A DNA stretch of 16,620 nt. Origin: Synechococcales cyanobacterium PMM_0073 (lineage in GTDB: Bacteria > Cyanobacteriota > Cyanobacteriia > Elainellales > Elainellaceae). The stretch lies in assembly GCA_949127695.1 (NCBI GenBank), contig CASBQH010000039.1:1-16620 (forward strand), in the 5' to 3' direction. The position numbers and the translations under genes were made by a program. Under the pieces are notes generated by a model, which did not search any database, was not told the DNA's origin, and saw only the letters and a program-made list of their open reading frames with translations. Below are positions 6,663-6,882 of the stretch, piece by piece. Position 1 is the stretch's first letter. Each line of letters starts with the position of its first letter.

Positions 6663-6692
6663 TTGACAATTTATGTAACATAATTGTAGTAT
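6663..6692 (+). promoter_or_regulatory. Sigma70-like promoter for the tRNA-like transcript
   Basis: A consensus -35 box TTGACA (6663-6668), an 18-base spacer and a -10 box TAGTAT (6687-6692, four of six). The expected start is about 6699-6700, precisely the first base of the 69-nt hairpin. This coincidence and the lack of a coding region downstream on this strand suggest a promoter for a non-coding RNA. Confidence 0.5.
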
Positions 6693-6699
6693 TAGTGTA

Positions 6700-6768
6700 G
6701 GCAGATCCATTAAAAGATCGGCGTCTGCTTGGAACACAGGCGCTTCCGACCTTATTAATGAATCTGCC
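6700..6768 (+). ncRNA. 69-nt near-perfect hairpin, 5' part of a putative structured RNA
   Basis: The two arms pair over 28 left-arm bases: 6700-6713 with 6755-6768 (14 positions, one C-A mismatch), then eight positions with one A-C mismatch, then CGTCTG with CAGGCG (one T-G wobble), with bulges of one and three bases on the right arm and a nine-base loop. It begins at the predicted start of a TTGACA/TAGTAT promoter and ends seven bases before the tRNA-like element. The termini GGCAGAT/ATCTGCC could also be ends of a small miniature mobile element, but I see no target duplication. Confidence 0.5.
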
Positions 6769-6775
6769 AGACTCT

Positions 6776-6856
6776 GGGGCTGCGAATGGCGTTCGACTGC
6801 TCTGAAACCGACAAATGGACAGTTGCAGGACTCGGGTTCGATTCCCGACAGCTCCA
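6776..6856 (+). ncRNA. tmRNA-type tRNA-like domain lacking the mRNA-like domain
   Basis: An 81-base element. Bases 6776-6782 (GGGGCTG) pair with 6849-6855 as a 7-bp acceptor stem whose third pair is G-U, the alanine identity element shared by tRNA-Ala and tmRNA. A perfect T arm follows GGAC (6828-6831): stem 6832-6836 with 6844-6848, loop TTCGATT. The 5' side reads CGAATGGCGTTCGAC, close to the conserved D-like loop of tmRNA. Instead of an anticodon arm, CGACTG (6794-6799) pairs with CAGTTG (6820-6825), in the place of tmRNA helix P2, closing only a 20-base loop. No tag reading frame or pseudoknots exist here or within 200 bases. CCA is not encoded, as is common in cyanobacteria. Gene order is not the permuted order of two-piece tmRNAs. 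It could be a deleted ssrA copy, an integration scar or a functional small RNA. I cannot fold a normal tRNA from it. Confidence 0.6.
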
Positions 6857-6882
6857 TCTCAATTGGGCAATATTTACGGATT

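Follow-up and report, generated by a model that had tools for sequence, protein, structure and literature searches.

Sequence evidence for a conserved cyanobacterial small RNA built on the tRNA-like domain of tmRNA

Why should a genome carry the tRNA-like half of transfer-messenger RNA (tmRNA) by itself? We address this question for the window, by which we mean the whole 16,620-nt stretch analysed here, contig 39 of the 3.6-Mb draft genome (78% complete) of Synechococcales cyanobacterium PMM_0073. At 6776-6856 of its forward strand, an earlier inspection of the letters (the sequence-only reading) had noticed a tmRNA-like tRNA domain with no mRNA-like domain, and had offered two origins for it: a deletion product of an extra copy of the tmRNA gene, ssrA, or a dedicated small RNA. 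Our sequence comparisons point to a dedicated small RNA that belongs to a conserved cyanobacterial family, here called mini-tmRNA, in which a short conserved loop replaces the tag message. It is not a scar, because the genome holds a full ssrA and smpB and because the same RNA occurs in many relatives.

Structure of the RNA in the window

The covariance search that the sequence-only reading had called for returned the tmRNA family RF00023 of Rfam at 6776-6859 (+), with 50.8 bits (E 1.2e-17) against a cut-off of 47. This is the sole match above an Rfam gathering threshold in the window, and no curated Y RNA family matches there. Both ends of the model (positions 1 and 374) are aligned within the interval, with nearly all of the message-like middle skipped. 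The parts of the RNA are as follows.

6776-6856, +: mini-tmRNA from G1 to A73, a tRNA-like domain of the tmRNA type that lacks an mRNA-like domain (sequence, Rfam, covariation)
6776-6782, +: 5′ strand of the acceptor stem, pairing with 6849-6855; G3 (6778) with U70 (6853) (fold, covariation)
6783-6796, +: D-like loop lacking a complete D stem; sequence CGAATGGCGTTCGA (Rfam alignment, fold)
6797-6828, +: P2-like stem, 6797-6800 with 6825-6828 and 6802-6804 with 6820-6822, closing a short apical part (fold, covariation)
6804-6820, +: private conserved apical loop, family consensus GAAACCAACAAACGGAC, with two substitutions in the window; its ends overlap the P2-like stem
6832-6848, +: T arm, preceded by GGAC at 6828-6831 (sequence, covariation)
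6849-6856, +: 3′ strand of the acceptor stem and discriminator A73 (6856), after which no CCA is encoded

The tmRNA-like marks named at the outset are thus all in place: a 7-bp acceptor stem with G3-U70, a T arm after GGAC, AATGG and TTCGAC within the D-like region (6783-6797) and a P2-like stem. Together with A73 they make up the tRNA-like hallmark of tmRNA. The RNA is 84 nt long and its computed fold consists of acceptor stem, P2-like stem and T arm (-29.8 kcal/mol, z -1.95). The single-sequence fold adds a 5-bp hairpin within the D-like loop of the window copy; as we read the sequences of relatives, these would form its three outer pairs (CGA/TCG) at most, and the pairs are nearly invariant.

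The absence of an mRNA-like domain was correctly seen. There is no room for a resume codon, tag frame or stop, and the pseudoknot ring is missing along with the skipped middle of the model. The loop, however, is not the plain 20-base loop that had been described: the enclosed apical part measures 15 nt and holds a conserved 2-bp CC/GG pair closing a loop of 7 nt. Nor is the RNA a cloverleaf, as no anticodon arm (5-bp stem, 7-nt loop) is formed, and ARAGORN made no call anywhere in the window, the mini-tmRNA included. A complete ssrA, which had also been proposed as a check, lies on contig 414 of the same genome and encodes the tag ANNIVPFARKAVTA; the genome has an SmpB gene as well (210 bits).

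Distribution and conservation of the family

When 386 cyanobacterial genomes were searched at the DNA level, three strong matches (86-88% identical) came from outside the source genome, and a search of plasmids added a copy on pNSMS105 of Nostoc sp. MS1. We built a covariance model from four copies, each with the private loop, and accepted matches at E 1e-4. With stricter filters the model found the RNA in 8 of the 386 evenly drawn genomes; it was found in 9/36 genomes of the window's own family (own genome included) and in 60/217 genomes of a Nostoc-rich family, that of genome G386. The two family-level searches therefore total 69 genomes bearing a mini-tmRNA, and a full ssrA was present in all 16 of the mini-bearing genomes searched for one. 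The idea of a virus-borne family was not borne out: in a single viral scan out of a possible eight, the model matched none of the three viral contigs that carry the exact loop, and matches in phage records were confined to the 3′ part (T arm and acceptor).

Common descent is indicated by the apical loop. A search for the exact loop yielded 63 genome loci (L041-L103), 51 with a model match and the remaining 12 with non-cyanobacterial names and no model match. Because these loci were gathered by the loop itself, we judged its conservation on the model-collected set (A5) instead, bearing in mind that the model too derives from loop-bearing copies. Of the 59 distinct copies in this set, 42 carry GAAACCAACAAACGGAC unaltered and 58 show no more than two changes; one more copy has a deletion. 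The loop is common to copies from different families, and pieces of its core occur in none of the 16 host ssrA genes examined. A single origin is therefore far likelier than repeated deletion within local ssrA genes, and the idea of a deletion product, or of an island scar in the local ssrA, is not supported. Moreover, in 44/59 distinct copies the enclosed part is free of stop codons in all frames, so that no ordinary tag could be read from them.

The helices covary. Across 76 model-collected copies (62 distinct) pairing is kept in 98.2% of cells, in an alignment that was fitted to the model and so leans toward pairing. Two-sided changes affect 14 of the 21 pairs among the 62 distinct copies, nine of the 14 in at least two rows and five resting on one row; this set includes three decayed copies (L191-L193). 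None of 500 shuffles, and no slid version of the alignment, approached the observed covariation, and the initial four copies alone show two-sided changes in 7/21 pairs. Intact helices had been taken as an argument against simple decay, and these compensatory changes, together with the spread of the RNA over relatives, uphold both that argument and the proposal of a dedicated RNA.

For identity elements, flanks and SmpB contacts we left out L191-L193. G3-U70 is kept in 73/73 intact copies, while acceptor pairs 2 and 4-7 vary, and A73 is kept in 59/59 distinct copies. Of the tmRNA nucleotides that contact SmpB (A15, U17, G19 and A334; PMC8363625), the equivalents of U17 and A334 are present in 59/59 and 58/59 distinct copies, respectively. 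Papers are cited here by PMC number. Mean identity over 39 stand-alone copies is 94.1% within the mini-tmRNA, compared with 64.8% and 62.1% in the 81-nt flanks and a shuffled baseline of 57.3%. On these sequence comparisons the mini-tmRNA is under selection.

The T loop is enlarged by about 20-44 nt in 14/59 distinct copies (L182-L190, L134, L135, L010, L108 and L109), with inserts that we take to resemble a small dispersed repeat.

Promoter, tRNA arrays and cassettes

Upstream of the RNA lie the following features.

6663-6692, +: promoter with -35 TTGACA (6663-6668), 18-nt spacer and -10 TAGTAT (6687-6692); 10/12 matches
6685-6692, +: TGTAGTAT box that overlaps the -10 and is identical to the TrcR site footprinted in the trn promoter of Anabaena (sequence; PMC10272220)
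6700-6768, +: long hairpin with imperfect pairing, in what is presumably the 5′ leader (6696-6775 folds at -31 kcal/mol, z -5.4)

In Anabaena PCC 7120 the trn tRNA operon has TGTAGTAT on its -10 TAGTAT as the binding site of TrcR, a repressor linked to translational stress whose level drops under chloramphenicol and which represses rtcB likewise (PMC10272220). By analogy with Anabaena, we infer that the mini-tmRNA promoter may also be regulated by TrcR. In the 3.6-Mb draft, the window site is the only one found for TTGACA-N14-25-TGTAGTAT, and the same pattern read backwards gave none. A TGTAGTAT-type box with a TTGACA-type -35 precedes 48 of the 54 copies, the window's included, that have no upstream tRNA within 1 kb, compared with 0/152 control windows. 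The pattern was relaxed after the copies had been viewed (TTGA[CT]A, TGTA[AGT]TA[TCG], spacer 14-32) and the controls used the same one. Among copies with an upstream tRNA, the promoter falls within 500 nt in 4/22; at six array loci (L043, L053, L060, L065, L091 and L095, from the pattern-collected set) it lies about 320-370 nt upstream of the mini-tmRNA. Moreover, the source genome has the trcR promoter motif in exact form about 145 nt ahead of a candidate RHH gene (115 aa); imperfect forms precede, on contig 269, its own tRNA array and an HNH gene. The leader hairpin at 6700-6768 is not evident in the upstream sequences of the relatives inspected, and no search for it was made elsewhere.

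ARAGORN, run on 54 loci, revealed long tRNA arrays in which the mini-tmRNA mostly occupies one of two slots: Asp-Glu(CUC)-Arg(CCG)-[mini]-Cys-Met-Trp, or, in Nostoc, Glu(UUC)-[mini]-Tyr. No mini copy of these loci received a tRNA call, and one overlapping starred tmRNA call (L053:2487-2849) crosses neighbouring tRNAs. The Anabaena trn operon is similar in being a long tRNA operon with the TGTAGTAT box on its -10, and an HNH endonuclease gene is among the TrcR targets; compared by its description in the available part of PMC10272220, it has 26 tRNA genes and no tmRNA-like gene is mentioned.

The remaining copies either stand by themselves or open a cassette. Its order is mini-tmRNA, tRNA 1, a protein of 69 aa, frequently one of 241 aa, tRNA 2 and, frequently, an L7/L12 paralogue and a vWA protein of 477 aa. 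Across 50 loci, which stop at 8 kb or less and thus give lower bounds, we counted the 69-aa protein in 27, the 241-aa protein in 22, the vWA protein, complete or nearly so, in 15, L7/L12 in 13 and EF-Tu in one, an array locus. The L12 and EF-Tu identities are firm (Pfam, NCBIfam). The conserved 69-aa and 241-aa proteins (L087:4478-4687 and L087:3222-3947) have no match in either database. The 477-aa protein matches Pfam VWA_CoxE and, marginally, TROVE proteins (phmmer, E 0.002). It is possibly TROVE/Ro60-like; its single-sequence structure model is too poor to use (predicted local distance difference test, pLDDT, 44.7). At L043:6212-7865, L7/L12 and EF-Tu paralogues follow the tRNA array, which suggests a spare translation operon.

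After the mini-tmRNA in cassettes, and also in Nostoc arrays, a tRNA gene lies between inverted repeats (AAAAAGCT..AGCTTTTT), for example at L100:3771-3843, downstream in L136 and at L048:5952-6023. By eye it is nested inside another tRNA-like sequence, and its anticodon is variable, mostly CUA and otherwise CUG, UCU, AGU, CUU or GAA.

In the window itself the mini-tmRNA stands between a gene for an RTX-repeat protein upstream and, downstream, genes for a GltD-like oxidoreductase, the glutamate synthase large subunit and Hsp33, none of which explains its role. The sequence-only reading had pointed to the site beside gltD as one to follow in relatives. The site is not conserved, and the other copies examined lie in arrays or cassettes or stand alone. 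We reject a linkage to gltD: within the genus the DNA search matched the window genome alone (1/5), and the one other member with a copy found by the model (G002, taken to be L091 because the contig coordinates agree) has it in an array.

Possible functions

Among the nearest known counterparts is tmRNA itself (ssrA, RF00023), which shares the G3-U70 acceptor stem, the D-like loop UGG..UUCGAC, a P2-type stem and GGA(C) before the T arm. In contrast to the 84-nt mini-tmRNA, it has a resume codon, tag frame, stop and pseudoknots (host ssrA, 382-405 nt) and lacks the private conserved loop and the array or cassette location. Message-less tmRNAs are already known from mitochondria, some plastids and phage DS6A. 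In an organelle the message-less tmRNA serves as the organelle's tmRNA, whereas the mini-bearing cyanobacteria also have a full ssrA. By their description, the forms of mitochondria and Mallomonadaceae plastids are similar in having retained the tRNA-like domain and lost the tag frame (PMC11915505). The RNA of mycobacteriophage DS6A, again by description, is hardly more than a tRNA-like domain, and its expression in E. coli reportedly inhibits tmRNA (PMC4131195, PMC11915505); it is a single phage gene, unlike a bacterial family of 69 genomes with a conserved loop and a TrcR-type promoter. A literature search and the available part of the tmRNA database paper (PMC11915505) revealed no cyanobacterial family and no conserved bacterial family in arrays; the first paper on trn induction may hold an earlier mention.

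We tentatively favour a stress-induced, alanine-chargeable mini-tmRNA that would compete with, or tune, tmRNA through SmpB and EF-Tu. Under translational stress TrcR would fall and the promoter at 6663-6692, which carries the box, would open if regulation follows that of Anabaena. The transcript would be trimmed at G1 and A73 and receive CCA. Alanyl-tRNA synthetase could then charge it through G3-U70 and A73, both determinants being present, and SmpB and EF-Tu would deliver it to ribosomes whose A site is empty. There it would compete with full tmRNA and accept the nascent chain without a tag message, leading to less tagging, for which the DS6A RNA offers a precedent, or to tag-free rescue. 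The mini-tmRNA would be one member of a TrcR-type spare translation set, made up of tRNA arrays together with the L7/L12 and EF-Tu paralogues that some loci hold. The sequence-only reading had suggested a tmRNA decoy, a role for which the DS6A report makes a case; the constancy of G3-U70 nevertheless suggests that charging matters in the mini-tmRNA. An isolated tRNA-like domain has been seen with SmpB and EF-Tu on a stalled ribosome (PMC3968760, PMC8363625), and in Helicobacter pylori mutation of the resume codon is lethal (PMC2584231), so that chain hand-over alone is no substitute for tmRNA in that species. Together with the inhibition by the DS6A RNA, these reports make competition or tuning more likely than full replacement.

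Several results weigh against this proposal. The RF00023 cut-off is passed by only 3 of the 16 listed mini copies; among further copies L044 passes (54.2 bits) and L043, L048, L008 and L072 fail. Three other types within the family score 23.4, 30.0 and 38.1 bits, under the cut-off of 47, although for each of them tmRNA is the best family of its clan, a point in favour of the proposal. Of the SmpB-contact equivalents, A15 is kept in only 1/59 distinct copies and G19 in 49/59. The apical loop is among the best-conserved parts, and neither a plain decoy nor a plain acceptor needs it. As to regulation, the TrcR candidate matches Pfam RHH_4 at E 0.098 only, the operator search of the source genome (up to 3 mismatches) found four places against one in the read-backwards control, and deletion of the trn operon in a trcR-deletion Anabaena left resistance to kasugamycin and β-methylamino-L-alanine (BMAA) unchanged (PMC10272220). 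The mini-tmRNA was found in just 2 of 15 array-bearing plasmid records, as judged from the stretches taken; arrays thus do not depend on it and we reject it as a universal array part. The 18 other model matches in those records (19-26 bits) fall on ARAGORN tRNAs, bar L119:1327-1410, which has no tRNA call. Lastly, the array of the source genome itself (contig 269, L217) looks partly decayed, with only nine recognised tRNAs and gaps between them, and it lacks a mini copy: with the filters switched off, the best two matches (21 and 20 bits) are tRNAs. Given this and the promoter in the window, the RNA is a single gene with its own stress-type promoter in the source genome.

The loop would find a use in a second form of the proposal, which we consider doubtful: a stress-inducible, tag-free trans-translation in which the alanyl-charged, message-less RNA, delivered by SmpB, would accept nascent chains on stalled ribosomes and use its conserved loop to bring in a dedicated factor, by which the complex would be ended or recycled with no tag added. 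In some strains the operon's own EF-Tu and L7/L12 paralogues would perhaps aid delivery.

It is likewise improbable, in our estimate, that the RNA is purely a sponge, binding SmpB uncharged and lowering trans-translation as proposed for the DS6A form. Retention of the U17 and A334 equivalents suits such a role, yet it requires no charging while G3-U70 and A73 are invariant in intact copies; loss of the A15 equivalent speaks against it, and the conserved loop is left unexplained.

A role in RNA damage or repair, in which the highly conserved loop would be a protein site, is also unlikely. Here the RNA would be an anticodon-less, nuclease-proof tRNA mimic that baits enzymes damaging tRNA, or it would partner, in the manner of a Y RNA, the vWA protein encoded in Nostoc cassettes (15/50 loci), which has the marginal TROVE match. 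TrcR repression of rtcB fits this idea, as do the reported repair of tmRNA by E. coli RtcB (PMC9650030) and the suggestion that the tRNA-like domain of YrlA is a nuclease inhibitor (PMC7790460). YrlA, the Y RNA of rsr-yrlBA-rtcBA operons, is similarly a tRNA-like RNA of a stress/RNA-repair operon, possibly sharing a TROVE-like neighbour protein (PMC7790460). Unlike YrlA, however, the mini-tmRNA has a complete acceptor stem with alanine identity, and three of its relatives matched no Y RNA family of Rfam up to E 10. Moreover, a profile from 15 cassette vWA proteins found no PDB entry at E 0.01, a search without positive control matched the 477-aa protein in none of five genomes of the window's genus, and the conservation of G3-U70 is not accounted for.

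That the RNA is an aberrant tRNA-Ala still decoding with its loop as anticodon loop is very unlikely: alanine identity elements, the location next to tRNA genes and the CC/GG pairs that close a 7-nt loop agree with it, yet only two pairs close that loop where an anticodon stem has five, the array-survey copies received no tRNA call and a normal tRNA-Ala(UGC) is also present in 14 of the 19 array loci with at least nine tRNAs. A scar or pseudogene, whether a deletion product of an extra ssrA or a remnant of an island integrated in ssrA, is hardly credible and for the family as a whole we reject it, since the 26/29 identity of its 3′ tRNA-like part to the ssrA of the same genome, the T-loop inserts and the decayed L191-L193 are set against a shared loop, compensatory pairs, conservation above that of the flanks and conserved promoters and array slots.

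Rescue by tmRNA is thought to require both halves of the RNA. If the favoured reading is true, these cells, or their plasmids, would adjust trans-translation by means of a natural competitor or a tag-free form of tmRNA, and cyanobacterial tRNA arrays would gain a part with a specific, testable action beyond that of extra tRNAs.
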